NCBI RefSeq assembly: GCF_900188245.1
Contig: NZ_FZOK01000008.1
Coordinates: 1 to 64,000 of the forward strand
Length of the DNA: 64,000 nucleotides
Reading direction: 5' to 3'
DNA from: Belliella buryatensis
GTDB lineage: Bacteria > Bacteroidota > Bacteroidia > Cytophagales > Cyclobacteriaceae
Shown here: positions 24,785-38,566 of the stretch, piece after piece
Layout of the letters: each line of letters begins with the position of its first letter
How positions within the stretch are numbered: position 1 is the first letter of the stretch
Notes under the pieces: generated by a model
What the model saw: only the letters and a program-made list of their open reading frames with translations
What the model was told of the DNA's origin: nothing
The model's database searches: none
Made by a program: the position numbers and the translations under genes

Positions 24785-25480
24785 TCAATAAATCACCAAT
24801 CTAAACCGCCACACTTCTCTCAAATCGGAGATAGCAACATAAAAAGGTTTGTATAGAGGATTGCTAGAACAAAGCAAAAGTCGCTCTTTTTCCTTGACCT
24901 GATTGTAAGCGATCTTGAATGTCACCCCATCCTGCTCTGTGACGATGACGTACTTGTCCCCATCCTTGATGCTAGTCCAGTCATCCACATACTCACAGAC
25001 AATCCATGCACCATCTGGCAAGGGTAGCATGGAGTCTCCATCAATTTGAAAAACCCTATGCTTCTTATCCTCAGGCAAAAAAGGTAAAGAAAACCTCGGC
25101 AACTCTTCGATAAAGTCTGGATCTGAAAATCCCGCCAAATAGGAAGCCTTTGCTCGCTGAGACACTACCTCAATCAATTCTCTCCCCTTTACATCCACCG
25201 TGGTAGTCAATATCCTGAGATTGCGACCTTTTAGGTATTGGTCAGTCTCCAATGTCTGTCTGAGCTTATACTCCGACAGTGATGCTAGGTCTCTGCGCAA
25301 CAACAAATCTACCGATACACCGAAATAATCAGAAATCATCAAAATAGCTTCTAATGGCGGATTGATGTTCAACTCGTAGCCCGCTAGCTTGGATCTACTG
25401 ATCCCTACACTTTGTGCCATCGTCTCTTGCGTCAGCCCCTTTTGCTTACGGAGGAATTTGATATTAGAATGAATATACAT
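24785..25480 (-). CDS. XRE-S24 transcriptional regulator, LexA/CI-like, probably self-cleaving
   Basis: This DNA-binding repressor has an N-terminal XRE helix-turn-helix (about residues 7-62) and a C-terminal S24 peptidase domain. Ser150 (DGDSMLP) and Lys189 (VTFKIAYN) are placed as the LexA dyad. An Ala116-Gly117 pair in SYLAGFSD suits self-cleavage. In LexA/CI proteins RecA-stimulated cleavage induces the regulon. It is divergent from dinB across 162 bases, so it probably represses that polymerase and itself. A phage origin is possible but no phage genes adjoin it. Confidence 0.88.
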   Translation of the reverse strand: MYIHSNIKFLRKQKGLTQETMAQSVGISRSKLAGYELNINPPLEAILMISDYFGVSVDLLLRRDLASLSEYKLRQTLETDQYLKGRNLRILTTTVDVKGRELIEVVSQRAKASYLAGFSDPDFIEELPRFSLPFLPEDKKHRVFQIDGDSMLPLPDGAWIVCEYVDDWTSIKDGDKYVIVTEQDGVTFKIAYNQVKEKERLLLCSSNPLYKPFYVAISDLREVWRFRLVIY

Positions 25481-25590
25481 GACAGATTATCAGATTTTTA
25501 TAAATGAATCAAGCCCACTGTGTCACTACTTGTCAGATTAAATACTGAAGTCCTTACATTTTTTATGGATTCGTATTTCAAATCTAATCA

Positions 25591-25623
25591 TTAAAGCCTA
25601 AATTATAAACAATAAAATGTCAA
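25591..25623 (+). promoter_or_regulatory. Shared dinB/dnaE2 upstream element (dinB copy)
   Basis: This 33-bp stretch, ending 19 bases before the dinB start, matches 38521-38553 upstream of dnaE2 at 29 of 33 positions. The core TAAATTATAAACA is identical. It probably is the promoter/operator of the damage-inducible polymerases and the target of the adjacent S24 regulator. Confidence 0.65.
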
Positions 25624-25642
25624 AATAATAAACAAAAAATTT

Positions 25643-26836
25643 ATGTCCTCTCAAAGCCGACACATCCTACACATGGACTTAGATTCCTTTTTTGTCTCGG
25701 TAGAGCGACTCTACGACGACAGACTCAAAAATAAACCCATTCTCATTGGTGGATCGGGAGACCGAGGCGTAGTGGCAGCATGTAGCTATGAAGCAAGAAA
25801 ATTTGGTGTACACTCGGCTATGCCTATGCGTACGGCTAGACAACTTTGCCCCGAAGCAATCTTGGTTCGGGGAGATTTTGAAAAATACAGTCAAAAGTCC
25901 CATGAAGTTACAGAAATCATTCGGGAAGATGTTCCTCTCTTCGAAAAGTCATCTATTGACGAGTTCTACATCGACTACACAGGAATGGATCGCTTCTTTG
26001 GCTGCTTCAAAATGGCTCAAGAGCTGCGCAAAAAAATCTCAAAAGAAACTGGACTGCCTATCTCTATGGGTCTTTCACAAAACAAGACTGTATCCAAAGT
26101 CGCGACCGGAGAAGCCAAACCCGATAACGAAAAGCAAATCCAAAAAGGGGAAGAGAAGCCATTTTTGGCTCCTCTGTCTGTACGCAAAATCCCCATGATC
26201 GGAGAAAAAACCTCTCACACACTCTACAATATGGGTGTCAAGAAGGTACAAACGTTACAAAACATGCCCGCTGAACTCTTGGAAGCCACCTTCGGAAAAA
26301 ATGGCCGTCTCATCTGGGAAAAAGCCAATGGCATAGACCATTCTCTAGTTACTCCTTATTCCGAAGCCAAATCCATCTCTTCCGAAAACACCTTCGAACA
26401 AGACACCATTGACATCAAAATGCTTGAAGCACACCTGGTCGCCATGACCGAGCAGCTAGCATCCAAGCTCCGACAAAAACAGCAACTCACAGCATGTGTC
26501 AGTGTGAAAATCCGCTATTCGGATTTTGATACGCATACCATACAGCAGCGGGTTCCTTATACCTCCACAGACCATACGCTGATCACTGTGGTAAAAGGTC
26601 TTTTCAAAAAACTTTATAATCGCCGCATGCTGATTCGTCTGATTGGCGTGCGATTCAGCAGCTTGGTGCATGGTAACTATCAGATCAATCTATTCGAAGA
26701 TTCCGAAGAACAAATCAGACTCTACCAGGCTCTTGATCGACTAAACATCAAATATGGAGACAAAACCGTCTGCCGCGCCATCGGTATGCAGGTCGGCAGA
26801 CGGAGATTCAATCCTTTTAATGGAGTGGGGATCTAG
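25643..26836 (+). CDS. dinB: DNA polymerase IV (Y-family translesion polymerase)
   Basis: This error-prone polymerase bypasses lesions. Catalytic acidic residues lie in HMDLDSFFVS (Asp11 and Asp13) and SIDEFYID (Asp/Glu near residue 105). RRSMP-type nucleotide contacts appear as ACSYEARKFGVHSAMPM. A little-finger domain and a C-terminal QINLFED sliding-clamp motif are present. Its 397 residues are normal. SIDEF replaces the commoner SIDEA. The divergent LexA-like gene and the element shared with dnaE2 indicate damage-inducible control. Confidence 0.95.
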   Translation: MSSQSRHILHMDLDSFFVSVERLYDDRLKNKPILIGGSGDRGVVAACSYEARKFGVHSAMPMRTARQLCPEAILVRGDFEKYSQKSHEVTEIIREDVPLFEKSSIDEFYIDYTGMDRFFGCFKMAQELRKKISKETGLPISMGLSQNKTVSKVATGEAKPDNEKQIQKGEEKPFLAPLSVRKIPMIGEKTSHTLYNMGVKKVQTLQNMPAELLEATFGKNGRLIWEKANGIDHSLVTPYSEAKSISSENTFEQDTIDIKMLEAHLVAMTEQLASKLRQKQQLTACVSVKIRYSDFDTHTIQQRVPYTSTDHTLITVVKGLFKKLYNRRMLIRLIGVRFSSLVHGNYQINLFEDSEEQIRLYQALDRLNIKYGDKTVCRAIGMQVGRRRFNPFNGVGI

Positions 26837-26842
26837 TCTAAT

Positions 26843-27970
26843 TTATACAGTCAAAAAATCCATATAATTGTCTGGAGACACTTGATGAAAAACAGTATTG
26901 GGATAAGCCTCTTCAAACCCGGAAGGAAATGAAGACCTCCTCTTCGGGTTCCATTTTGCTTCGAAAGCATGGATTGCTCCTCCCTTTTCTTCAAGCCAAT
27001 CCAACTCCATTCCTGTCGTCGTCCTCCAGAAATAAACATTGGTTTTTATTCTGTTGTAATGCAAAAACTTCATTCGTTCACTGATGATGAAATTCTCCCA
27101 AAGCGCTCCTACATCATTCCGCAAAGACAGCGCATTGAAATTGTTGATAATGGCATTTCGAACGCCATTGTCCCAAAAATAGATTTTCTTGCCCTTCTTG
27201 ATTTCCCTTCGCATATTCCGACTGAAGGAATTCATCTTAAAGATCACATAGCTTTTCTCCAAAAGATCTATGTATTTTTCGGCGGTTTCCTTATCTATTC
27301 CTATCGTATTTCCCAGCTCATTGAAAGTCACTTCAGAACCTACTTGTAAAGCCAAGGCGAGCAATAATTTCTGCAAAATAACAGGCTTCCTCACTTGGTC
27401 TAAAGTGAGAATATCTTTGTAGAGATAGCTACTCGTCAGTTCTTCAAGAATCTCCTCTGCTTCACTTGGTTTATTGACAACTTCAGGGTAAAAACCATAA
27501 ATCAGCCTCGTATCAAGCATCCTTCTCTCCTCCCTCTGAGAGCTATGAGCTATCATTTCTCCTGTAGAAATCGGGTAAAGACTCAATTCCCTCTTCCTTC
27601 CTGTAAGAGGCTCTTTGATTTCATTTGCAAGTTCCAAAGCTGAAGAACCAGACGCAATCACTTGCACACCGGGCATGCCATCTGCGATCAACTTCAAGGT
27701 CAAACCAATGTTTTTGACCCGCTGAGCTTCATCGATCACCACCAGCGTATGCGAACCTATGAGTGACTTTAGTCTAGTAATCGTCACGTCCTCTAAATCA
27801 TCTCTATCGTCAGGATTGTCACAATTGAGCCACAATACATCCAGCTTCTCACGCTCTATCAGCTGCCTCAACAAAGTAGTCTTACCTACCTGCCTTGGAC
27901 CCAATACCAACAAAACCTTTCCTTGATTGAGTCTGATTTTAATTTCGCTTTCTATTACCCTAGTAATCAT
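26843..27970 (-). CDS. AAA-family ATPase with DUF4143 (ATPase/nuclease-fold) domain
   Basis: Proteins of this family pair a P-loop ATPase with a C-terminal DUF4143 region; their cellular role is poorly known. Walker A is GPRQVGKTT, Walker B LVVIDEAQR, and sensor-like VIASGSSALEL follows. The C-terminal FWRTTTGMELDWLE and HAFEAKWN resemble the acidic/Lys core of PD-(D/E)XK domains. I set the start at 27970 because the family begins just before the Walker A strand. Upstream in-frame ATGs (28012, 28060) fall inside a 32-bp tandem repeat whose period is not a multiple of three. Confidence 0.85.
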   Translation of the reverse strand: MITRVIESEIKIRLNQGKVLLVLGPRQVGKTTLLRQLIEREKLDVLWLNCDNPDDRDDLEDVTITRLKSLIGSHTLVVIDEAQRVKNIGLTLKLIADGMPGVQVIASGSSALELANEIKEPLTGRKRELSLYPISTGEMIAHSSQREERRMLDTRLIYGFYPEVVNKPSEAEEILEELTSSYLYKDILTLDQVRKPVILQKLLLALALQVGSEVTFNELGNTIGIDKETAEKYIDLLEKSYVIFKMNSFSRNMRREIKKGKKIYFWDNGVRNAIINNFNALSLRNDVGALWENFIISERMKFLHYNRIKTNVYFWRTTTGMELDWLEEKGGAIHAFEAKWNPKRRSSFPSGFEEAYPNTVFHQVSPDNYMDFLTV

Positions 27971-27984
27971 TTCTAGATCATTTG

Positions 27985-28080
27985 AAGCAAAAATATGTAA
28001 TTCTTCGATCATAACCGAAAATAAACATGTAATTCTTCGATTACGATCGAAAATAAGCATGTATTTCTTCGATTAGAGAA
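27985..28080. repeat. Three tandem 32-bp repeats upstream of the DUF4143 ATPase gene
   Basis: Units start at 27985, 28017 and 28049. The shared core ATGTAATTCTTCGAT recurs exactly every 32 bases (the third unit has one change). Units 2 and 3 match at 25 of 32 positions, units 1 and 2 at 23. Unit 2 contains the inverted repeat GTAAT-TCTTCG-ATTAC. The spacing is close to three helical turns, as expected of repeated protein-binding sites on one face of the DNA. Confidence 0.8.
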
Positions 28081-28102
28081 ATTAGAAAGGAGTTGAAAAA
28101 AT

Positions 28103-28133
28103 AAAATCAAGGACTTAAGGGGTCCTTGATTTT
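28103..28133 (-). terminator. Terminator of the ABC transporter/GntR operon
   Basis: A 12-bp perfect stem AAAATCAAGGAC/GTCCTTGATTTT around a 7-base loop is followed on the minus strand by a T-rich run. It lies 36 bases past the last gene of the operon. Confidence 0.9.
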
Positions 28134-28169
28134 AAAATACACTTTCTTTATAAAAGATAGACTTACAAA

Positions 28170-28904
28170 TCAGTTACTGAAAAACATAAGACCTGAACTA
28201 TCATCTTTTTTGAGATTGATTTCATTTGCTTTTCTTGGGAGTGTCAATTTAGATTCAATAATATTACCGGAAACTCTTCCTAAGAATTGTGACACATCAG
28301 CTTTACTCTGATTCAAATGAATCTCTAAATTGGGAATACTTTCTACAGACAAATGAGCTCCAGCATCTCCTCGCAAATCTAAAAACGATATACCATGTTC
28401 CCTTCTAAGCTTAAAAGAAGAATTGGAGGCTATTACTTTTAAGCTATCATAATTAAGCGCATTTTGGGTCCCTAACTCAGTGACATCATTTAAAATCAGA
28501 GTTTTAATATTCTGCCCAATATAAAGTGTTAACGATCCGTTTTCCTTCATTCTAGCATCCCTGACAAATAAAGTATCTTCCTTAACCTGAATAAAATATG
28601 GACTAGAACTATTAGAGGCATTTTCATCACTCTCCTTATAGGAGAATTGTCTATACTCAATTCGGCTCACATCCTCCTTCTTAAACATCAAAATCCCCGA
28701 ATTTTGAATTGATACTACCGAAAATTCGCCTTCAATAGGCATTGTGTCAACTGAAGTTTCCTCTAATAGAAAAGTCTCTCTTAACAGTAAATCTTCTTTT
28801 TCCGAATAATGAACAGAAGCAAACACTGCCCCAACCACGGACACCCACGCAAATCCCAAAAAAGAGAATAAAATTTTATTACTTGTTTTCATTTTGATTT
28901 TCAT
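28170..28904 (-). CDS. Membrane-anchored protein with beta-helix-like repeats, unknown function
   Basis: The 244-residue protein has an N-terminal membrane segment or uncleaved signal (ILFSFLGFAWVSVVGAVFA). The extracytoplasmic part has repeated short strands (SLKVIASNSSFKLRR, FLDLRGDAGAHLSVES) reminiscent of the DUF2807/GIN beta-helix family; this is resemblance only. It is the last gene of the ABC-GntR operon and overlaps the GntR gene by 26 bases. Met5 is an alternative start that shortens the overlap. A role in the stress or envelope function of the transporter is inferred from position. Confidence 0.75.
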   Translation of the reverse strand: MKIKMKTSNKILFSFLGFAWVSVVGAVFASVHYSEKEDLLLRETFLLEETSVDTMPIEGEFSVVSIQNSGILMFKKEDVSRIEYRQFSYKESDENASNSSSPYFIQVKEDTLFVRDARMKENGSLTLYIGQNIKTLILNDVTELGTQNALNYDSLKVIASNSSFKLRREHGISFLDLRGDAGAHLSVESIPNLEIHLNQSKADVSQFLGRVSGNIIESKLTLPRKANEINLKKDDSSGLMFFSN

Positions 28905-29256
28905 TAAGTTGATCTAAAAGCATTTTAAAGTCAGCAGGAACCATTTTCAAGACTTTTGCTTGATGCACCAGCTTGGGGAGTTCTTTTTGAAGAAAAAGTT
29001 TTTTCTCATCCTGAATCAAACGCTCTCTAGCATGATCAGAGACAAAAAAACCTATTCCACGTTTGTTATCCACTATCCCTTCATTTTCCATCAAAGCATA
29101 GCTTCGCATGACCGTGTTTCTATTGACTTCTAAGTCCACTGCCAATTCTCTAACAGAAGGAATCTTATCTCCCGGAAGTAATTTTCCTGTGAGAATCTGA
29201 TCGACCAGTCTGTCCCTAATTTGGATAAATATGGTTTTACCATCGCTAAATTCCAT
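28879..29256 (-). CDS. GntR-family transcriptional regulator (YtrA-type)
   Basis: This 125-residue regulator has an N-terminal winged helix (about 10-75: IRDRLVDQILTGKLLPGDKIPSVRELA, then VNRNTVMRSYALMENEGI). A short helical C-terminus replaces a ligand domain, as in the YtrA subfamily, which usually controls an adjacent ABC transporter operon. Here it is encoded inside the operon, one base after the permease gene. A palindrome TGTCATA-N6-TATGACA at the head of the operon is its likely operator, giving autoregulation. Confidence 0.9.
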   Translation of the reverse strand: MEFSDGKTIFIQIRDRLVDQILTGKLLPGDKIPSVRELAVDLEVNRNTVMRSYALMENEGIVDNKRGIGFFVSDHARERLIQDEKKLFLQKELPKLVHQAKVLKMVPADFKMLLDQLNENQNENK

Positions 29257-29257
29257 A

Positions 29258-30079
29258 TTAAACCTCCCTTTCTTTTAGCTTGTAATATGAAATAATGTAA
29301 CTTAGCACAGCACCCGTATAAAATAAAACTAGCAAGACATAAATCATCAGTGGTGCTTCATTTCCAAAAACTTTAATGTTCCAACTGCTATCAAGAAAAT
29401 AACCAAGAGTCTTATTTCCATCATTAAATAAATTAGATATTATAAATGGAGACAAAGCCGTTGCCACGCTGAATACAATTATAAAAAGAGGAACCATCAC
29501 AATATTCCACTTTCCAAAATATTGACTTCCAGTGAATATCGCTGAAGGGATAAATAATATTAAACTCAAAATAAAGATATAATATAGCCAGTCTGCACTT
29601 TGTTTAATTGGTATCAAAACATCAAAATCTATAATATCTATATTAGTTATCCCTCCTGTCCATTGTATCAAAAACTCTAGAGCTATCCATCTGGCAAGGA
29701 TGGCACTTAAAGCAAAAATTGTAGGCATAACCAAAAAAGCCAATGTGAATTTCACTATAAACTGAGAGAATAGCTTCTCCAATGGTAAAGCTGGTAAAAG
29801 GAGATATCGCTCTGCGGAGACTTTTGACCTTAGATCCATAAAACTTTGTCCTACAACAAAAAGTAAAATTGCTATTACATAAAAAAAGTACGCTCCGTTA
29901 TAAAAATTATTTTTTTCTCCATACTGTGTCATATCTATCCTTTGATATGATAAGTATTGAGTAAGATACAATGTAACAAGCAAAAATGCCCCAAAAATAA
30001 GCAAAAGGTAATACTTCTTATGAAGCAAAAATTCAAACTTGATCAGCTTCAAAATTCTGGATAAGGATAAATTATTCAT
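29258..30079 (-). CDS. ABC transporter permease-type membrane protein
   Basis: The 273-residue protein has about six hydrophobic helices (for example YYLLLIFGAFLLVTLYL and GAYFFYVIAILLFVVGQ) and a final helix near YVLLVLFYTGAVLSYII. No named family motif is obvious, but the topology and the 8-base overlap with the ATP-binding gene upstream make it the membrane half of that ABC system. Such YtrA-linked systems are often tied to cell-envelope stress. Substrate and direction are unknown. Confidence 0.82.
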   Translation of the reverse strand: MNNLSLSRILKLIKFEFLLHKKYYLLLIFGAFLLVTLYLTQYLSYQRIDMTQYGEKNNFYNGAYFFYVIAILLFVVGQSFMDLRSKVSAERYLLLPALPLEKLFSQFIVKFTLAFLVMPTIFALSAILARWIALEFLIQWTGGITNIDIIDFDVLIPIKQSADWLYYIFILSLILFIPSAIFTGSQYFGKWNIVMVPLFIIVFSVATALSPFIISNLFNDGNKTLGYFLDSSWNIKVFGNEAPLMIYVLLVLFYTGAVLSYIISYYKLKEREV

Positions 30080-30932
30080 GTGTTACTTGATTTTGAGTTG
30101 ATAAAAATTCACCGGTCAATTTGCCCGCGATCACCGCATTAAATAATAATTCTAAGTCAGGGCTGCCACCAGAAATACGTTCTCCTTCAGGCTGTCTCGC
30201 TATATATTGAGCTCCAAGAAGGTGTGATTCTACAAAAATAGCTTGCTCAGGAGCTTGCGGTCCTTGGGAGAAGACAAATTGATTTTCTAAGGCTTCCAGA
30301 TCTGCATGAAGCTTCACTTTCCCTTCATCTAAGACAATGATCTGATCTACCAAGTTCTCAATATCCTTGACCTGATGCGTGGAGATAACCATGGTCTGAT
30401 CTTCTTGCAGGCTACCGGAAAGCACTCTCCTGAATGTACTTTTTGAAGGAATATCCAAGCTATTTGTCGGTTCATCGAATAGCAGCAACTTCGCCCCAGT
30501 GCTCAATCCAATCGCAATCTGTAACTTCTTTTGCTGACCAAATGATAGGTTGGAAATTCTCTGATTCCCGATAATCTGAAACTCTGAGAGTAACTTTTCA
30601 AATCGATCAGAATCAAATCCTGTATAAAAATCTTTATAGATACTTACATATTCATTCACTTTCAAAAACTCTGGTACAGAAACTTTCTCAGGAACAAAAA
30701 TCATTTGATTCAAAAATGAGACTGCTCTGTCAAATGTAGAAACCTCGTGAAACTTCACTTCACCTGAAACTGGCTTGAGCAATCCTGCCATCAGGCGCAT
30801 CAAGGTGGATTTGCCTGCTCCATTCATCCCTAAGAGTCCTATAATTTTACCCTCTCCCAATTCCAGATCCATTTCCTCACAAAGCCTGGGCTTTTTTGGA
30901 TAGGAAAAACTCAACTTTTTTATTGAAATCAT
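30072..30932 (-). CDS. ABC transporter ATP-binding protein
   Basis: This cytoplasmic nucleotide-binding subunit powers the permease encoded downstream. Walker A is GMNGAGKST (about 35-43), the signature LSFGQQKKLQ, Walker B LLLFDEPTNSLD and the H-loop STHQVKD. A C-terminal extension of about 70 residues follows the ATPase core. It is the first gene of a four-gene operon (ATPase, permease, GntR, membrane protein). The start lies 15 bases from a palindromic operator. Confidence 0.93.
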   Translation of the reverse strand: MISIKKLSFSYPKKPRLCEEMDLELGEGKIIGLLGMNGAGKSTLMRLMAGLLKPVSGEVKFHEVSTFDRAVSFLNQMIFVPEKVSVPEFLKVNEYVSIYKDFYTGFDSDRFEKLLSEFQIIGNQRISNLSFGQQKKLQIAIGLSTGAKLLLFDEPTNSLDIPSKSTFRRVLSGSLQEDQTMVISTHQVKDIENLVDQIIVLDEGKVKLHADLEALENQFVFSQGPQAPEQAIFVESHLLGAQYIARQPEGERISGGSPDLELLFNAVIAGKLTGEFLSTQNQVTHE

Positions 30933-30947
30933 ATCTTAATGTTTTAC

Positions 30948-30967
30948 TGTCATAGTATATTATGACA
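30948..30967 (-). promoter_or_regulatory. Palindromic operator, probable GntR/YtrA site
   Basis: TGTCATA-GTATAT-TATGACA is a perfect 7-bp inverted repeat with 6-base spacer, 15 bases upstream of the operon's first start codon. It is well placed to block the promoter or the start of transcription, and fits the operon-encoded GntR regulator. Confidence 0.7.
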
Positions 30968-31183
30968 CTAACATAGGTGATTAAATTTATAAGTCAAAAA
31001 TTATTTTTAAAAAATTTTAAAAATCCTTTGAAAATCAGAGTCTTTAATTGAACAATCTCATCTATTTGAAAAGCATATTGAACAATAAAGGAAAGTATCA
31101 AGTTCTAAATGTTATACTCACTCTTTAATCAATTAGAAACCCTCAAAATAAGCAAGGTTTTGAGAGATTTCTGAAAATAAATC

Positions 31184-31954
31184 ATGCCCAAGTTATCTTC
31201 TGAAGAAAAGTTTGTGGATGTCTCCGATTATGGAAGACCGCTGGCGAGAGCTTTTGTGAATCAAGTGCAACATACCCGCATTACTCCAGTACAGGTTACT
31301 TACCTATTTGGTATCAGTGGTCTAATTGCCATCTTTTGTATCCTCCACGGATTATATTTGGCTGCTGGTTTTTTCTTGATCCTCAAATCCATCTTGGATG
31401 CTGCAGACGGTGAACTTGCTAGAACAAAAAATCGCCCCTCTTACACAGGCAGGTATTTGGATTCTATTTTCGACATTTTTCTAAATTTCCTTTTCTTGGG
31501 GGCAATTTGGTATGTAACAAACTCTTCTATTTGGGCCACATTACTGGCTTTTTTGAGTATCCAAGTTCAAGGCACTTTGTACAATTATTACTATGTAATA
31601 CTCAGACACAATACAGAGGGTGGGGAAAGAACGAGCAAAATCATAGAAAATAAGCGACCAAAGGCATTTCCGATTGAAAGTCAAAGTACCGTTGATTTTC
31701 TTTATGACACATACAACATTTTGTACGGCACTTTTGATAAACTAATCTATCGTTTGGACAAAAGCGCAAGTGATGCACCACCATTTCCAAAGTGGTTTAT
31801 GTCCATGATTTCTATATATGGTCTTGGCTTCCAACTTCTTATTATTTCAGCTCTTCTGTCAGTTGGACTAATTGAATTTATCATCCCGTTTTTTATTGGC
31901 TACAATGTATTCTTGATAGTGTTTATAGGTTTGAGAAAGATTTTTTTGACATAA
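31184..31954 (+). CDS. CDP-alcohol phosphatidyltransferase family protein
   Basis: This integral membrane enzyme transfers a phosphoalcohol group from a CDP-alcohol to a lipid or sugar acceptor. The signature D-G-x2-A-R-x8-G-x3-D-x3-D is visible as DAADGELARTKNRPSYTG followed by RYLDSIFD (about residues 68-94). Several hydrophobic helices surround it (LFGISGLIAIFCILHGLYL, FGLQLLIISALLSVG). At 256 residues it is longer than PgsA/PssA types, so the exact phospholipid product is not assignable. It stands alone and ends in a terminator shared with the converging lipoprotein gene. Confidence 0.88.
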   Translation: MPKLSSEEKFVDVSDYGRPLARAFVNQVQHTRITPVQVTYLFGISGLIAIFCILHGLYLAAGFFLILKSILDAADGELARTKNRPSYTGRYLDSIFDIFLNFLFLGAIWYVTNSSIWATLLAFLSIQVQGTLYNYYYVILRHNTEGGERTSKIIENKRPKAFPIESQSTVDFLYDTYNILYGTFDKLIYRLDKSASDAPPFPKWFMSMISIYGLGFQLLIISALLSVGLIEFIIPFFIGYNVFLIVFIGLRKIFLT

Positions 31955-31955
31955 A

Positions 31956-31984
31956 AAAAGACAACAAAAATTTTGCTGTCTTTT
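31956..31984 (+). terminator. Bidirectional terminator between convergent genes
   Basis: AAAAGACA/TGTCTTTT with inner CAAAA/TTTTG forms an interrupted stem of 13 pairs between the CDP-alcohol transferase and lipoprotein genes, with A/T runs on both sides. Confidence 0.75.
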
Positions 31985-32010
31985 CCATAATTTAACAATT
32001 AACCTAAACA

Positions 32011-32511
32011 CTATTCTATGATTCTCGCTCTTACTCTCATAGAGACAATTTCCTGACCATTATCAAGCGTCACTAAAAACATGAAAGCTAATTCATCACC
32101 TGCTCCAACAGAAGTAACTTCACCTTCACTGTTTGTTCTTACTTTTTCTTCAAACTCAGTGATCGATGTTGTGAAAACTGCGCTTGTTGCTCCAACTTGT
32201 ATCGGGGCATCCAAATAACTTTCATTTGAATTCAACTGCCCCACATTGATATCGGACGCACCACCTATAGCCTTCGTGATTTCTGCAATAGTTCGTCCTG
32301 AGGCTTCTGGAATCTGCATTTCATATCTAATCTCCCCACTGCCCGAAACTGACACTTCTATAAATGGATCAAATCCGAAAGTAGTCGCATTTGGGAAAGT
32401 CAATGGAACCTCAGCAACATTGTCACTATTAAGCTCACCGAAATCTTGTTCACAAGATGTTGCAAACCATGCGAACACCATCAACACAATATAATTTTTT
32501 ATCTTTTTCAT
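32011..32511 (-). CDS. Small lipoprotein of the second SusCD operon
   Basis: The roughly 166-residue lipoprotein has lipobox WFATSC, so it is likely outer-membrane anchored. The body is a single beta-sandwich-like domain with no motif I can name. It is the third gene of the operon and begins right after susD. I set the start at 32511 (MKKIKNYIVL), a normal signal peptide; an upstream ATG at 32529 would overlap the susD stop by 8 bases. By position it is a surface substrate-binding accessory protein. Confidence 0.75.
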   Translation of the reverse strand: MKKIKNYIVLMVFAWFATSCEQDFGELNSDNVAEVPLTFPNATTFGFDPFIEVSVSGSGEIRYEMQIPEASGRTIAEITKAIGGASDINVGQLNSNESYLDAPIQVGATSAVFTTSITEFEEKVRTNSEGEVTSVGAGDELAFMFLVTLDNGQEIVSMRVRARIIE

Positions 32512-32521
32512 AATCTTTAGC

Positions 32522-33976
32522 TTATTCATTCCACCAAACAGGGATATTAGAGAAAATATTATTAGGGAAATTTGGGTTTCTTGCTACTTCTTGAGAGACA
32601 TATTGTGCTCTCAGAGGGCGCTGATTCGGGTCAATGCCACCTGCATTCTGATGAGGTGCTAATGTTGGGTAGCCCGTTCTTCTCCAATCTGTCCATTGCT
32701 CTATCCCATTTCCAGTCCAAGCGATGTATTTTTGAGTGAGAATTTTTTCCAAATCTGACTCAACATTACCGGTTAGATTTACTTCATCCGAATTATCAGC
32801 AAAATATTGGTCGATTTGCGCCGCAGTCAATCCTGCCAAAGACATAGAGGCCCTTATTCCTTCTTGATAAAATGCATTGGCATCTCCAGCAATTCCCAAT
32901 CTAACTACAGACTCCGCCATGATAAATGCCCTCTGGAAGTTGGTGAGAAGTCTAACTGGTCCTGCACCATTACCTGTTACATAAGTGTTGAACCTAGACC
33001 AAGAAGTTTGTGGAAGGGGTCTCTGGCCTGCAAAACCATTATCTATAGTAATAAACTCTCCAGTTGGCGCTGTGACAAATATTGGTAATCTTGGATCATT
33101 TTTGCTTTGTAGCAAATTCACGAAACGCGTACTTATAATCAAATCCGCCGCAAATGTGGATATATTGGTCCACTCGTGAACTGGCGCATAACTCCCTTGA
33201 GAAGTCCCGAAATTGATATTCAAATCTTCATCGTTACTCAATATCAAGTCATTCTGCAATACCTCATTAATTATTGAAGTAGCCAAGGCTGGCTCCTTAA
33301 CAGAAATTGTATTTGCCATTTTCAACATCAAAGTATATCCAGCTTTTTTCCAACTTAGCAAATCACCTCCATAGGCCACATCATCTTGACCTGGGACTGC
33401 GGTAGATTCAGCATCTAGATCTGCAATACCCTCTCTTACTAAATCAAAAAGACTCTGTATTTGATCTGTTCCTTTATAAATATCCTCTTGGCTATCTAAT
33501 ACTGGCTGCGTGTTTTCAAGCCCTAATAAAGCTTGAGAATAAGGAATATCACCCCAAGTATCTGTAGCCAAAGCAAAAGCATAAGCTTTCATGATTTTCC
33601 CAATTCCAGAATAAGCACTAGCCCCAATCGCATCGGCAGATTTGATCATTTCTTCAAAAGAAATCAGTGCACCACCATATAATTCAAATCTCCACTGATT
33701 TCCAAAATCATCACCATCGATATCATAGATATCATAAGCCGCTGGCGAACCACCTGCACCAGCTGTTACAGAGATCACTGTAGAACCGAATCTGTTAAGC
33801 TCATTGTTATTGGCAAAAGCTGTTCCGGTCAATCCTGTCGGTAAAAGCAAATCAGGAGTAACTGACTCAGGGTTATTTGGATTCTCATTGACATCCAAAA
33901 ATTCCTGACAAGAAGTTGCAGTAAAGACTACTGCTACCACTAATAAAATTCTATTTAATGTTTTCATCTTCGTCAT
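32522..33976 (-). CDS. SusD-like outer membrane lipoprotein (second locus)
   Basis: This 484-residue surface lipoprotein has lipobox TATSC (Cys23, CQEFLDVNENPNNPE). The N-terminal DVNENPNNP segment and the KAYAFALATDTWGDIPYSQAL stretch mark the SusD-like_2 branch, distinct from the classic SusD in the first locus. The C-terminal KYIAWTGNGIEQWTDWRRTG replaces the usual ERR-FDLKR motif. It is co-transcribed with the SusC gene, whose stop lies 1 base upstream. Ligand unknown; no degradative enzyme is adjacent. Confidence 0.94.
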   Translation of the reverse strand: MTKMKTLNRILLVVAVVFTATSCQEFLDVNENPNNPESVTPDLLLPTGLTGTAFANNNELNRFGSTVISVTAGAGGSPAAYDIYDIDGDDFGNQWRFELYGGALISFEEMIKSADAIGASAYSGIGKIMKAYAFALATDTWGDIPYSQALLGLENTQPVLDSQEDIYKGTDQIQSLFDLVREGIADLDAESTAVPGQDDVAYGGDLLSWKKAGYTLMLKMANTISVKEPALATSIINEVLQNDLILSNDEDLNINFGTSQGSYAPVHEWTNISTFAADLIISTRFVNLLQSKNDPRLPIFVTAPTGEFITIDNGFAGQRPLPQTSWSRFNTYVTGNGAGPVRLLTNFQRAFIMAESVVRLGIAGDANAFYQEGIRASMSLAGLTAAQIDQYFADNSDEVNLTGNVESDLEKILTQKYIAWTGNGIEQWTDWRRTGYPTLAPHQNAGGIDPNQRPLRAQYVSQEVARNPNFPNNIFSNIPVWWNE

Positions 33977-33977
33977 A

Positions 33978-36900
33978 TTAAAGCGTGAATCTTATATTGA
34001 CACCATAGTTTCTGGTATTAGGCACACCGTTGAGGTCGAGACCTTGGATATTACCTGCCCCTTGCGTGTTCAGTTCTGGGTCACCCGGGAATCCAGGAGC
34101 AAAGAACCAAAGATTTCTACCACTGAAGCCAATACTTGCCTCTCCAAACGGAGTCCTTTCCAAAAATCTTCTGGGAAGATTATAAGACAAACTCACTTCT
34201 CTTAATCTATAAACAGTAGCATCATAAACACCGCTTTCAGATATTAGACCTCCTAGTCCAGACCAGTACGTTTGAGCAGGTACTTGAATATTATTTGGCA
34301 CATATTGTCCATCTCCAACTTCGATCACTCCGGGCAGTACTCTAGGTAAATCTCTGTCTACTCCAGTCATTGCCAGTGTACCACCATTTCTCTGATCTAC
34401 CATACCGAAAGAATAGATGTCACCGCCTTGGCGAGTATCTACCAAGACACTCATCATCCAGTTTTTATATCTAAATGTATTCATCAGGCCAGCTAACCAA
34501 TCAGGCTGAGAGTTAGCGATTACTTGTCCCGCTATTCCAGGTAGATAGCCACCAGTAAGTGGGTTAATTAATAATTCACCCGCTGCATTTCTTTGCATGG
34601 CATTACCCACGATCACACCATAAGGTTGACCTACTACAATAGATGGCGTCAATCCAATGAATCCATTACCTGGGATACCTGACTGGTCGACTCCTGGTGC
34701 AATTTCCCTGACTTCATTTCTGATACGCGTAAAATTTAACCCCATATCCCAAGAAAAGCTTCCTGACTCTAGAATGGTCCCATTCAATTCCAATTCAATA
34801 CCCTGGTTGACCATCTCTCCGACGTTTGTAGTTTGTACATCAAATCCAGAAGCATTGGAAACGGCTACATTGAAAATTTGATTGGTAGACCTCGTGAAAA
34901 AATATGCTGCATCAATAGAAAGCCTATTGTTGAATAAGCCAATATTACCACCTACTTCATAACTTGTCACAAATTCAGGTGTCAACTGATCAGAACCCAA
35001 TCGTGCACCTGGTAAGAAACCTGGAATATTTGCTCCGCCAACCCCAATTGGAAATTGAACAGAAGCTACATTGTTACCGAAACCAGCAGTACCAAAGAAT
35101 GTATTCAATAGGTATGGGTCAGCATCCCTACCAACTGTGGCGGCACTAGCTCGCAATTTGGCATATGAAAGTACATCGGATTCAATGTTGAACGCATCTG
35201 TCAACACAAAACTAGTGGCAATAGATGGATAGAAATATGCATTGTTACCAGCTGGCAAAGTAGAGGACTGATCGACTCTTCCAGAAAGTTCTAGAAATAA
35301 ATAATTATTATAATCCAAAGAAAGCTGTGCGTAATATCCCAAGAGCCTTCTAACATTGGAAAATTCACCTGACCCTGTAAACACAGATGCATTACTTACA
35401 TTGTCAAAAAATGGCACATTCAAAGCTGAGCCCAATACACCTATGGTTTGAAGATTCCTTTGATTGATATTTTGACCGAGTAATAATGAAGCACTAAAGC
35501 CTTCTGTAAAGATATTAGACTTTGAGGCCGTGATTAATAAGTCCCCGTTCAATTCAGATCTATAAATCATATCATCAGCGATGCTTCCTGCTGGAGTTCT
35601 AGCAGATCCAATTCTTGAAACTGCCTTACGTCTGTCCGTATATGTATCAGCCGTCACCCTATAAGTGATATTCAACCAATCAGATATGTCATATCCCACC
35701 TTGAAATTACCAAAAACTCTATCAACGGTACTTTCAAGGAATTCATTTTGAGTACTCCAAAGTGGATGATTTTGAGCTGGGTTATAGAATAAACTATTAC
35801 CCAACTCGTCTTGGAATGGCTCTCCAACCAAATCAAAGGATCTTGGGATTCTGGTAATCTGACCAAAAGCAGAACCTCCATTACCTGTAATAGTATTTCT
35901 GGACTCAGATTTCACATAAGTAACATTACCACTTACCTTGACTCCATTATTGAGCTTTTTATTCCCTCCTACTTGAACATTATTTCTATTGAAAAATGAT
36001 TCGGGGATAATCCCATCCTGTAAGGATGAATTGACTGAAACAATAAAGTTATCATCTCTATTGCCTGAAGCTATACTCACACCATTTTGAACGATTCTTC
36101 CTGTTTGATAAAAATCTCTAACGTTATTAGGAAATGCCTGATAAGGCACCGTAGTTCCAAAACTTGTTTCTACAGTTTCGAATCCAGGTGTTCCAAAAGC
36201 AGGACCCCAAGAAGCAGTAGAGATGTTATTAAAATCATTTTGTGTGCCTTGACCAAATTGATTTTGAAAACTTGGTAAACCATACACACTCTGAAAATTA
36301 ACAGATGAATTCACTGTAATCTCCGTCTTATCGTTCATGTTTGCCCCACTTTTAGTAGTGATGACGATCGCACCTGCGGAAGCTCTAGAGCCATACAGTA
36401 CAGATGCAGCCGGACCTTTCAGTACATTGATCGACTCGATGGACTCTGGAGCTATATCATTCAACCTGTTGGCTGGCTGAGACCCAAAAAGTGTGTTTTG
36501 GGTATTGTCAGTATCGTTATTGAAAATAATTCCATCTACCACAATCAATGGTTGATTAGACCCAGTGAAAGAAGTAATACCTCTAATGTTGATATTGGTA
36601 GAAGCACCTGGGGCTCCAGAAGCACCTACTATATTTACGCCAGTCAACTTACCTTGTAGGGAATTAAGTAAATTTGGCTCCGATTTTTGACTTACCATAT
36701 CTCCCTTAATGGATTGCACTGCATAACCAAGTGATCGCTCATCCCGCTCAATTCCTTGAGCAGTAACAATAAATTCACTCAAATCTTCAAGGTCAGATGC
36801 CAAGTTCACATTAATTTCTGACCTTGATCCTACGCGCTCTTCATGGGTTTTGTATCCAATAAAACTAAATACAAGAACTGCCTGATCTGAGGGCACTTCT

Positions 36901-37085
36901 ATAGTATACCTTCCGTCCAAGTCTGTGGTAGTACCCGAACTGCTTCCTTTAATTAGAATATTCACTCCTGGAATACCCTCTGGCTCCTCCGTTGAGGTCA
37001 CCCTTCCCGTTACTGCTTTACTCTGCGCCCATATTTCATTGGTAGCAAATACAAGCAACAGAAGCGACAATAAAACTCTCTTCAT
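33978..37085 (-). CDS. SusC/RagA-family TonB-linked outer membrane transporter (second locus)
   Basis: This 1035-residue TonB-dependent importer has a signal peptide (to about residue 20). A carboxypeptidase-regulatory-like domain (TGRVTSTEEPEGIPGVNILIKG) and a plug (GKLTGVNIVG, INIRGITSFTGSNQPLIVVDG) lead into the beta-barrel. It differs clearly from the first SusC in plug and length. It forms a three-gene operon with the SusD-like and small lipoprotein genes. The same 15-base leader motif as in the first locus lies 9 bases before the start. Confidence 0.96.
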   Translation of the reverse strand: MKRVLLSLLLLVFATNEIWAQSKAVTGRVTSTEEPEGIPGVNILIKGSSSGTTTDLDGRYTIEVPSDQAVLVFSFIGYKTHEERVGSRSEINVNLASDLEDLSEFIVTAQGIERDERSLGYAVQSIKGDMVSQKSEPNLLNSLQGKLTGVNIVGASGAPGASTNINIRGITSFTGSNQPLIVVDGIIFNNDTDNTQNTLFGSQPANRLNDIAPESIESINVLKGPAASVLYGSRASAGAIVITTKSGANMNDKTEITVNSSVNFQSVYGLPSFQNQFGQGTQNDFNNISTASWGPAFGTPGFETVETSFGTTVPYQAFPNNVRDFYQTGRIVQNGVSIASGNRDDNFIVSVNSSLQDGIIPESFFNRNNVQVGGNKKLNNGVKVSGNVTYVKSESRNTITGNGGSAFGQITRIPRSFDLVGEPFQDELGNSLFYNPAQNHPLWSTQNEFLESTVDRVFGNFKVGYDISDWLNITYRVTADTYTDRRKAVSRIGSARTPAGSIADDMIYRSELNGDLLITASKSNIFTEGFSASLLLGQNINQRNLQTIGVLGSALNVPFFDNVSNASVFTGSGEFSNVRRLLGYYAQLSLDYNNYLFLELSGRVDQSSTLPAGNNAYFYPSIATSFVLTDAFNIESDVLSYAKLRASAATVGRDADPYLLNTFFGTAGFGNNVASVQFPIGVGGANIPGFLPGARLGSDQLTPEFVTSYEVGGNIGLFNNRLSIDAAYFFTRSTNQIFNVAVSNASGFDVQTTNVGEMVNQGIELELNGTILESGSFSWDMGLNFTRIRNEVREIAPGVDQSGIPGNGFIGLTPSIVVGQPYGVIVGNAMQRNAAGELLINPLTGGYLPGIAGQVIANSQPDWLAGLMNTFRYKNWMMSVLVDTRQGGDIYSFGMVDQRNGGTLAMTGVDRDLPRVLPGVIEVGDGQYVPNNIQVPAQTYWSGLGGLISESGVYDATVYRLREVSLSYNLPRRFLERTPFGEASIGFSGRNLWFFAPGFPGDPELNTQGAGNIQGLDLNGVPNTRNYGVNIRFTL

Positions 37086-37094
37086 GTTATAATA

Positions 37095-37109
37095 TTTGGT
37101 TTAACGATA
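37095..37109 (-). promoter_or_regulatory. Conserved leader motif in front of the second susC gene
   Basis: TATCGTTAAACCAAA on the minus strand, identical to 20299-20313 and at nearly the same distance from the ATG, although the flanks differ. Confidence 0.55.
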
Positions 37110-37521
37110 AATATTAAATACTAATATTAATTGTTTTTGTTATATAATAAAAATTTAATGATTTTTTTAAACAATATTTAAACCAGTTATTTATTCTAAA
37201 AAAATAAAGTTTTATAAAAGATATATTAAATCATTAATAATTTATATTTTAATAAAAAACAGAATATTTATTCACATTTACTGTTTTTATTTAAAAAATA
37301 AAATGATGTTCTAGCTAAATCAAAACAAATAACCCTTCAACCTTCAAAATTAATCTACAGCACATTTCAAAAGAATCTATTTTATATGTATATACATGTA
37401 AAATTATCTAAGGGTTTAAAAAATTTTAACTTTTTTTATCCATAAACAGATTTTATGAAATAATTACTATTATACATGTGATTTAAACCTGAAATTACCA
37501 GAAGAAAAAAATATAAAATTT
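37110..37521. other. Long AT-rich intergenic region upstream of the second SusCD operon
   Basis: About 410 bases of very A+T-rich sequence with no credible gene. It holds a 12-bp perfect palindrome ATGTATATACAT (37386-37397). It must carry the susC promoter, but no clear TAnnTTTG element is seen on the minus strand. Confidence 0.5.
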
Positions 37522-38442
37522 TTACGGTCTCCTACCCTCAAGAATTATGGATGTGGTCGGGTAGACAATCCTAACACTACTTTCAGCCTTAAATTGATCA
37601 ATAATACTTTCTGTGATCAAATGTTCAAAAAATCTCCTTTTCCTGGGATTACACAAATAGCGCAATGAAAGTTGTATTCCTCTTTCGTGAATCTTAGCAT
37701 ATACTGTGGGAGTATATTGGGTGAAAGAAATGAAATGCTCCTTCTGTGCTTTCTTAAGGGCTATTTGGATACTTCGATATTCTTTCTTGAATATCTCTTC
37801 AAGCATTTCAGTTAAAATCAACTTGGCTCTCTTATAATCGGAATCCAAACTGATGTTAATATGCTGCTCATTCCATATATAATCAAAACCCTGACTGTAA
37901 TTGGCCTGCGGTGCCGAAAAAACCATCCCATTTGGGACGTGAATAATCCTACCTGTACTCTGCTCAGCATCCACCCAGTTACCCACTTCAAGGATACTAA
38001 ACTGAAACACCCTCGTATCTACCACATCACCTTTAAACTCCCCTATCTGTACCCTGTCCCCTATATCAAAGGGCTTGCGCCAAAGAATAAACAGCCAACC
38101 AGCAATGTTGATAAAAATATCTTTTAAGGCAATCGCTATACCCGCTGATAATAATCCAAGGAAAGTCGTGATGGATTGGAAGTTACTGATCCAAATATTC
38201 CCGATTAGTAAAAATCCAATAAATACAATGATATACTGAACAGTCTTCCTCCAATGATAAAACTTTTTAAGCTCTGTCTCTTCTCTTTTTGCACCGATAA
38301 TCCTGAAAGCGAGCTTTTTAATCACCCATAAGACCACTATGATCATGATGGTCTTGTAGATGTCCCATCTCAACTCATAGGCCACTACAGTATTCAAATA
38401 ATCAATCCACTGTTCCATATTTTCAATAGTATCAAGCTCCAC
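37522..38442 (-). CDS. MscS-family mechanosensitive channel
   Basis: This 306-residue inner membrane channel releases solutes on hypo-osmotic shock. Three hydrophobic helices precede the pore-lining helix (TFLGLLSAGIAIALKDIFIN, about 92-111). The beta domain follows with KPFDIGDRVQIGEFKGDVVD and IIHVPNGMVFS, then a C-terminal alpha/beta domain. The glycine/alanine-rich TM3 pattern and GDRV motif are typical. It is transcribed divergently from dnaE2 across about 220 bases. Confidence 0.92.
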   Translation of the reverse strand: MELDTIENMEQWIDYLNTVVAYELRWDIYKTIMIIVVLWVIKKLAFRIIGAKREETELKKFYHWRKTVQYIIVFIGFLLIGNIWISNFQSITTFLGLLSAGIAIALKDIFINIAGWLFILWRKPFDIGDRVQIGEFKGDVVDTRVFQFSILEVGNWVDAEQSTGRIIHVPNGMVFSAPQANYSQGFDYIWNEQHINISLDSDYKRAKLILTEMLEEIFKKEYRSIQIALKKAQKEHFISFTQYTPTVYAKIHERGIQLSLRYLCNPRKRRFFEHLITESIIDQFKAESSVRIVYPTTSIILEGRRP

Positions 38443-38520
38443 TTACAATTTTATTCTTTTTATCGACAGTCCAAAAACTTTTCTTGACAATTCTCTTCTC
38501 AAAATTGGAAAGACGATTTT

Positions 38521-38566
38521 TTAATGACTAAATTATAAACATTAAAATGTTAATTTTATTAACATT
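38521..38566 (+). promoter_or_regulatory. Shared dinB/dnaE2 upstream element with inverted repeats (dnaE2 copy)
   Basis: Positions 38521-38553 match the dinB upstream element at 29 of 33 bases. The copy is extended by symmetrical half-sites: AACATT-AA-AATGTT (38538-38551) and AATGTTAAT-TTT-ATTAACATT (38546-38566), both perfect. The ATG at 38547 lies inside it and is not the gene start. Confidence 0.65.

Follow-up and report, generated by a model that had tools for sequence, protein, structure and literature searches.

In a stretch of 64,000 nucleotides from Belliella buryatensis (family Cyclobacteriaceae; contig NZ_FZOK01000008.1, positions 1 to 64,000, analysed at full length and called the window here), the polymerase genes dinB and dnaE2 are preceded by copies of one composite, operator-like element. 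Composite sites in the Belliella genome were found upstream of these two genes only and, by overlap, also at the gene of an XRE-S24 regulator, S24-A, that is divergent from dinB. These sequences are best read as a translesion-polymerase regulon, small and dispersed, whose repressor would be a diverged LexA-like protein. We consider it likely that the element is a tandem operator bound by S24-A, which would jointly repress dinB, dnaE2 and itself, with DNA damage as the likeliest trigger. The features on which this reading is built are the following.

24785..25480, minus strand: XRE-S24 regulator S24-A, the candidate repressor (HTH_3 and Peptidase_S24), divergent from dinB
25595..25611, plus strand: dinB operator 1, AGCCTA-AATTA-TAAACA
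25618..25634, plus strand: dinB operator 2, TGTCAA-AATAA-TAAACA, starting 23 bp past the operator 1 start
25643..26836, plus strand: dinB-type Y-family polymerase gene (PF00817, E 2.4e-48)
38525..38541, plus strand: dnaE2 operator 1, TGACTA-AATTA-TAAACA
38548..38564, plus strand: dnaE2 operator 2, TGTTAA-TTTTA-TTAACA, a perfect dyad
38661..41609, plus strand: dnaE2-type C-family polymerase gene (PHP, pol3 alpha, finger and HHH_6)

The two copies (25591-25623 and 38521-38553) are identical at 29 of 33 bases, a count made in an earlier note on this DNA and confirmed on recounting; the identical core that the note described is present as well, but spans 14 bases (25598-25611 and 38528-38541) rather than 13. 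An all-diagonal scan of the window returned this as the only same-strand pair of 33-mers at least 100 bases apart with at least 29 identities, and three locally shuffled windows contained no such pair. A search of all 3,877,983 bases of the genome with the 23-letter core, which includes one N, allowing up to three mismatches, hit these two places only, with no hits in the reversed control, and a matrix made from relatives plus the window's own two sites also selected these two places only in a scan of the window. The impression that no other gene start in the window has the element agrees with these scans, and in its own genome the element is not scattered over many unrelated genes. Both copies contain two 17-bp dyads, weaker in the dinB copy, a parse that was derived from relatives. 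The palindromes noticed earlier in the dnaE2 copy are real, but their division into AATGTT half-sites was not retained: the letters are there, and the stable units in relatives are two TGTYWA-N5-TWRACA dyads 23 bp apart, with TGTYWA as the half-site. As a regulon finder, a single palindrome (TGTTWA-N5-TWAACA, one mismatch) was uninformative alone, with 74 places in the genome versus 120 in the reversed control. Further single-site targets in the genome are possible; of the two other exact single sites, one lies just past a gene that we take to be DnaE1-like (L097), and the other is at the end of a presumably unrelated gene (L098).

To describe the architecture in relatives, dinB and dnaE2 loci were taken from the family and their upstream stretches were scored by mismatches to a 40-bp composite consisting of TGTYWA-N5-TWRACA, six bases and a second TGTYWA-N5-TWRACA, with dyad starts 23 bp apart. 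Thirty loci were fetched per gene, out of 100 (dinB) and 94 (dnaE2) genomes with a match. All 24 dinB loci at least 74% identical to the window gene contained the composite (0-3 mismatches), as did all 23 dnaE2 loci at least 65% identical to it (0-4 mismatches), so that the element does stand upstream of orthologous polymerase genes of this type; the remaining six dinB and seven dnaE2 fetched loci, 13/13 outgroup loci, had 8-10 mismatches. At genes of this type the composite is kept whether dinB and dnaE2 are linked or not. Composite positions 2, 16, 25 and 39, occupied by G and C, were invariant in 47/47, and where the letters have diverged (L057-L059, L155-L159) the 23-bp dyad offset is nonetheless kept. 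The operator 1 spacer is near-fixed as AATTA (first base in 34/47), whereas the operator 2 spacer is a variable mix of A and T. Were one of the two upstream regions simply a recent duplicate of the other, with no control in common, this would explain why the 29/33 identity resembles a copy. However, both copies occur in 23/23 fetched genomes with both genes of this type, their flanks differ, and the TTG and the S24 -7-like box considered below are gene-specific; this explanation is already disfavoured and seems to us barely credible.

The distribution of the element was then compared with that of S24-A in a sample of 118 family genomes, with S24-A called at 69% identity or more. S24-A was present in 23/118. 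Composite sites numbered 84 versus 15 in the reversed control in these 23 genomes and 64 versus 64 in the other 95, and this excess only where S24-A occurs supports the earlier proposal that the XRE-S24 protein is the candidate repressor. The element was at dinB or dnaE2 in 22/23 S24-A genomes versus 2/95 others, the latter figure coming from a by-eye comparison of site and gene positions in which weaker elements could be missed, with the upstream mismatch scores added for G340. In the 23rd S24-A genome (G271), the only dinB of this type is a broken copy next to S24-A. At this locus (L128) the site persists between the dinB remnant and the intact S24-A gene; the other dinB and dnaE2 of the genome are of another type.

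A second comparison used named S24-A loci, 43 of which, out of 73 returned, were at least 68% identical. The fetched stretch included dinB in 36/43, and all 36 carry the site. Every site with at most three mismatches in the 43 loci (45/45) was at dinB (36), at dnaE2 (4) or upstream of S24-A (5); L233:78 was assigned to dnaE2 because its place on the contig agrees with where dnaE2 of G275 begins, and among the five S24-A sites that of L234 is identical in sequence to the one next to the dinB remnant in G271. In the remaining six loci, which have no dinB nearby, a weaker pair lies 32-57 bp upstream of S24-A (3-5 mismatches, 6/6), which suggests autoregulation of S24-A. Of 1,720 stretches drawn at random from these loci, most had 8-10 mismatches and 32 had 0-5, the latter probably overlapping known sites.

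Most of the further composite sites that could be placed abut the starts of genes for an uncharacterised family of proteins of about 85 amino acids. There were 27 family matches, of which 25 were examined after two fragments had been dropped; 23 of these have the pair with at most four mismatches, ending 0-19 bp before the matched small-protein start (member coordinates L277:2012-2269, L284:1944-2222, L276:2031-2276 and L289-L315). The extra composites in G205, G241, G276, G279, G300 and G327 were considered as off-targets, an idea that was rejected as they abut members of this family or their remnants; the G279:C1 member is a weak match (E about 1e-4). Among the matches listed, the unexplained sites in S24-A genomes are three in G316 and one in G188 (3 mismatches). 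The family was detected in 14/118 genomes, 12 of them with S24-A, is multicopy in G279 and G276, and had no match in the window's genome. Pfam gave no match for three members (E 0.01) and PHROGs none for the one member scanned, and PADLOC returned one marginal match (E 0.0068) for two scanned members. This operator is the only known clue to the family. G279 has paired small-protein copies on contigs C5, C12 and C19, the two members of a pair lying about 25.07 kb from each other; a 25-kb stretch may be repeated in this genome or its assembly, and some copies may be assembly duplicates.

The position of the element relative to possible promoters was assessed using the Bacteroidetes consensus described as TAnnTTTG at -7 and TTTG near -33 (PMC7366714). 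Two putative promoter features lie outside the operators.

25579..25586, minus strand: putative -7 box of the S24-A promoter, TAGATTTG, which fits TAnnTTTG and lies 8 bp left of operator 1
38505..38507, plus strand: TTG at -20 relative to the start of dnaE2 operator 1, a putative -33 promoter element of that gene

With the first of these boxes, the -33 region of the S24-A promoter would fall in dinB operator 1. On the polymerase side, a putative -7 box TAAATTAT, which includes the spacer AATTA, overlaps operator 1 of dinB at 25599-25606 and operator 1 of dnaE2 at 38529-38536. Since the operators overlap these putative promoter boxes, repression would be expected to act by covering the promoter. 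A reverse-strand TAnnTTTG (CAAAnnTA) starts 15-16 bp left of operator 1 in 16/24 dinB loci, and its absence where S24-A is distant (L140-L142, with S24-A elsewhere) or missing (L155-L156, from genomes without S24-A) suggests that it is the -7 box of the divergent S24-A gene. The same layout would also be compatible with an AT-rich symmetric promoter that is conserved for transcription initiation only and needs no repressor: TTG is found at -20 from the operator in 17/21 dnaE2 loci, and conservation of the spacer is stronger in operator 1 than in operator 2, the pattern expected of a -7 box. Yet a promoter requires neither two dyads at a fixed 23-bp offset nor restriction to two genes, its co-occurrence with one regulator gene would be unneeded, and the small-protein genes carry the same pair against their start codon. 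We regard a promoter without a repressor as very unlikely.

S24-A has an N-terminal HTH_3 domain (PF01381, E 9e-11) and a C-terminal Peptidase_S24 domain (PF00717, E 6.5e-08), and is 98% identical to an S24 protein of Belliella pelovolcani. A Pfam scan found only HTH_3-type domains and no LexA_DNA_bind winged helix-turn-helix (HTH) in it. The suggestion that the regulator is LexA was therefore abandoned; judged by its domains, S24-A is a CI-like S24 protein near the published non-canonical LexA of Bacteroidetes and not a canonical LexA. Its catalytic dyad is Ser150/Lys189, with the Ser and Lys columns invariant in 81/81 homologues (some strains are represented twice). When E. coli LexA and UmuD are aligned with S24-A, their scissile pair falls on Ala112-Ser113 in 3/3 alignments; that of lambda CI does so in 2/3 (reference pairs LexA Ala84-Gly85, UmuD Cys24-Gly25 and CI Ala-Gly). 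Four residues past this pair S24-A has Ala116-Gly117, and 12/32 other homologues also have Ala-Gly there; as a plain scissile bond it was rejected because the LexA, UmuD and CI alignments place the pair four residues earlier. The top Foldseek match for a predicted model of S24-A was Thermotoga LexA (3k2z, E 8.5e-07), whose global superposition is poor; the C-terminal domains of LexA by themselves superpose better, and some unrelated enzymes score too. Other S24 homologues (L036, L254, L256, L033) have upstream N5 dyads of other sequence, such as GATAC-N5-GTATC and TTAGCAT-N5-ATGCTAA, and differing recognition helices.

From these observations we infer the following mechanism. An S24-A dimer would bind each palindrome, probably cooperatively, with both palindromes on about the same helix face because their starts are 23 bp apart. 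Bound S24-A would cover the probable -7 boxes of both polymerase genes together with the -33 region of its own divergent gene, so that dinB, dnaE2 and the regulator gene would all be silenced. The likeliest trigger is DNA damage, through RecA-promoted self-cleavage of S24-A at Ala112-Ser113 or Ala116-Gly117, which is the least certain step. Cleavage would free both promoters, and DinB and DnaE2 would then appear together wherever their genes lie.

Several observations weigh against this mechanism. Genomes of one family are not independent samples, and the Fisher value for the co-occurrence is therefore overstated. In two genomes without S24-A, G283 and G340, the element is nonetheless present both at dinB (2-3 mismatches) and at dnaE2 (3-4 mismatches), and two others without S24-A (G300, G335) have a composite at a small-protein gene. 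The putative polymerase -7 box fits only 4/6 letters, and the reverse-strand TAnnTTTG is missing in three loci (L157-L159) though S24-A is adjacent. The predicted S24-A model is middling (pLDDT, the predicted local distance difference test, 78; pTM, the predicted template modelling score, 0.45). The aligned scissile pair is Ala-Ser in 42/42 S24-A sequences versus Ala-Gly in 39/39 others, namely 7/7 sequences of a paralogue, S24-B, and 32/32 further homologues. Because of this Ala-Ser, damage-triggered cleavage is uncertain, and control by damage is less certain than joint control. Finally, S24-B could possibly bind the dinB/dnaE2 element as well, since a similar 23-bp-spaced pair stands at its own promoter.

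S24-B is a second S24 repressor, 41% identical to S24-A and encoded outside the window (G000:C19, L285:2054-2833), where an open reading frame (ORF) of 81 amino acids (L285:1809-2054) precedes it. Its upstream pair has the 23-bp offset and outer half-sites TGTT/AACA in 7/7 loci (1-3 mismatches, relaxed pattern) and starts 68-83 bp before the preceding small ORF, with TGTTAT-N5-ATAACA as one dyad in most. S24-B alone or both paralogues might thus bind the element, in which case S24-A would not be the regulator or not the sole one. This offset and these half-sites fit such a role, as does the Ala-Gly that S24-B keeps at the aligned scissile position (7/7), and G283 and G340, with the element and without S24-A, have other S24 proteins, one of which (L131) lies behind a TGTTAT-N5-ATAACA dyad. 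Against this, G281 has S24-B and no composite at its dinB and dnaE2, the elements following S24-A instead; the inner half-site of S24-B is different (TGTTAT), and S24-A adjoins dinB in most loci. We consider this rival unlikely on balance and prefer the reading with S24-A as the repressor. An Asn-Gly in S24-B was entertained as a defect and dismissed, because the protein has Ala-Gly at the true aligned scissile columns.

A more tentative extension, which we would not presently expect to hold but find worth stating, is that there are two parallel LexA-like switches, S24-B with Ala-Gly and S24-A, with Gly replaced by Ser, for a dispersed mutagenesis-only regulon. This regulon would comprise dinB, dnaE2 and, in relatives, also the orphan protein of about 85 amino acids. 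If true, S24-A would undergo late cleavage, cleavage at a shifted position or none by RecA, mutagenic synthesis would be uncoupled from, or delayed behind, the remaining damage response, and the two paralogues could compete for their similar tandem operators. Since the scissile glycine has been lost throughout the clade, it can be tested whether a differently triggered repressor can hold mutagenic polymerases.

The Y-family protein had been viewed as a possible ImuB-type cassette member. Its catalytic acidic motifs, MDLDSFF and SSIDEFY, are conserved in 29/30 aligned sequences (one gapped), and because these residues are kept the protein is DinB-like and not ImuB; its QINLF segment is, we assume, clamp-motif-like. 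The NCBIfam error-prone model scores below its cut-off on dnaE2, whose name rests on context. This gene probably starts at 38661 and not at the mechanical ATG at 38547, since relatives align there, and with this start the element lies 5' to dnaE2. Between the two polymerase genes lie the following.

37522..38442, minus strand: MscS-type channel gene (PF00924, E 3.2e-13), divergent from dnaE2
26843..37085, no strand assigned: genes between dinB and mscS, from the ORF list, lacking there in Litoribacter

The genes at 26843-37085 are presumably those of an ATPase, GntR/ABC, CDP-alcohol transferase-like and SusD/SusC-like proteins. In two Litoribacter loci (L206, L207), S24, dinB, mscS and dnaE2 occupy about 7 kb in the window's orientations; dinB to dnaE2 is about 1.9 kb with mscS between, and the dinB-mscS interval is only 0.8-0.9 kb. 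Both genes occur in 22 S24-A genomes: they are adjacent in one (G271, with other-type genes), separated by 1.3-8.5 kb in three and, on one contig, by at least 11.8 kb in eight, and lie on different contigs in ten. Among 67 genomes without S24-A, the genes are within 600 bp in 25, within 10 kb in 20, farther apart in 6 and on different contigs in 16; three more genomes without S24-A and with both genes (G242, G302, G339), all on different contigs, were left out of the 67. The Litoribacter order, together with the tight linkage common in genomes without S24-A, supports the earlier idea of a cassette split by unrelated genes. The 10-kb block at 26843-37085 was probably inserted or rearranged within the Belliella lineage, a polarity suggested by the outgroups. 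The ancestral gene pair would have been pulled apart in this clade, each half keeping an operator copy. In many Algoriphagus loci (L211, L214, L215, L219, L221, L224, L227-L229, L231) the starts of S24-A and dinB are 0.7-1.4 kb apart rather than flanking one short intergenic region, and dinB keeps the element.

S24 phage-like repressors of Bacteroidetes are described as controlling SOS genes via CTAA-N5-TTAG or GGA-N5-TCC (Sanchez-Osuna et al. 2021; PMC8565304). The same source reports a functional diverged N5 palindrome and relatives with N5 operators that bind and are damage-inducible; Cytophagaceae homologues could not be assigned there, and its main text names neither Cyclobacteriaceae, Belliella nor Algoriphagus. 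S24-A is like these non-canonical LexA proteins as described there in its HTH_3 and S24 domains, its Ser-Lys dyad and its location near an error-prone polymerase, and in an N5 palindrome, sometimes with two sites per promoter and a site at the regulator's own promoter, that has error-prone polymerases among its targets (PMC8565304). As in those systems, an N5 palindromic operator lies here upstream of both error-prone polymerases and the regulator. The Belliella system differs in its TGTYWA-N5-TWRACA sequence, the fixed 23-bp tandem pair, the Ala-Ser scissile position and the confinement of composite sites in the genome to dinB and dnaE2. The published CTAA-N5-TTAG or GGA-N5-TCC operators were rejected as candidates, the conserved dyads being TGTYWA-N5-TWRACA. 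CTAA-N5-TTAG was not found in a listing of N5 dyads with half-sites of at least 5 in the 320 bp upstream of the window S24-A, where the only such dyad is unrelated and inside dinB. At other loci N5-spaced dyads have several half-sites, which would fit the published motif drift. A literature search of partial coverage found no account of this operator or clade, and our reading would extend Bacteroidetes LexA-like control to Cyclobacteriaceae (Belliella, Algoriphagus, Cecembia and others).

The layout of the element is that of CI operators, because the OR3-OR2 spacing of lambda is the same: OR3 and OR2 are annotated as 17-bp operators with starts 23 bp apart, and OR2 and OR1 are 24 bp apart. S24-A further resembles lambda CI in having a CI-type HTH with an S24 domain and 17-bp dyads. 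The half-site and targets are different, CI keeps the scissile glycine, and the cooperativity proposed here is an expectation from spacing. Canonical LexA with imuA-imuB-dnaE2 offers a parallel in that a Y-family polymerase is controlled jointly with DnaE2, as we propose here; in contrast to that cassette, S24-A has no winged HTH, the Y-family active-site acids are kept and the genes are dispersed. A DnaE2B-PolY-RecA complex has been predicted in Bacteroidetes (PMC12926913), and an active-type PolY in the same genome as DnaE2 is common to that module and to Belliella. Because DinB here keeps its catalytic acids, it fits this prediction, which in the source concerns composition and not control (PMC12926913). 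HdiR of Streptococcaceae and UmuDAb of Moraxellaceae are similar by description, as S24 repressors mainly of error-prone polymerases (PMC8565304). New here are the diverged operator combined with a fixed, lambda-like two-site geometry, and a graded set of natural genomes showing what would be a single regulon close together, loosened and fully dispersed.

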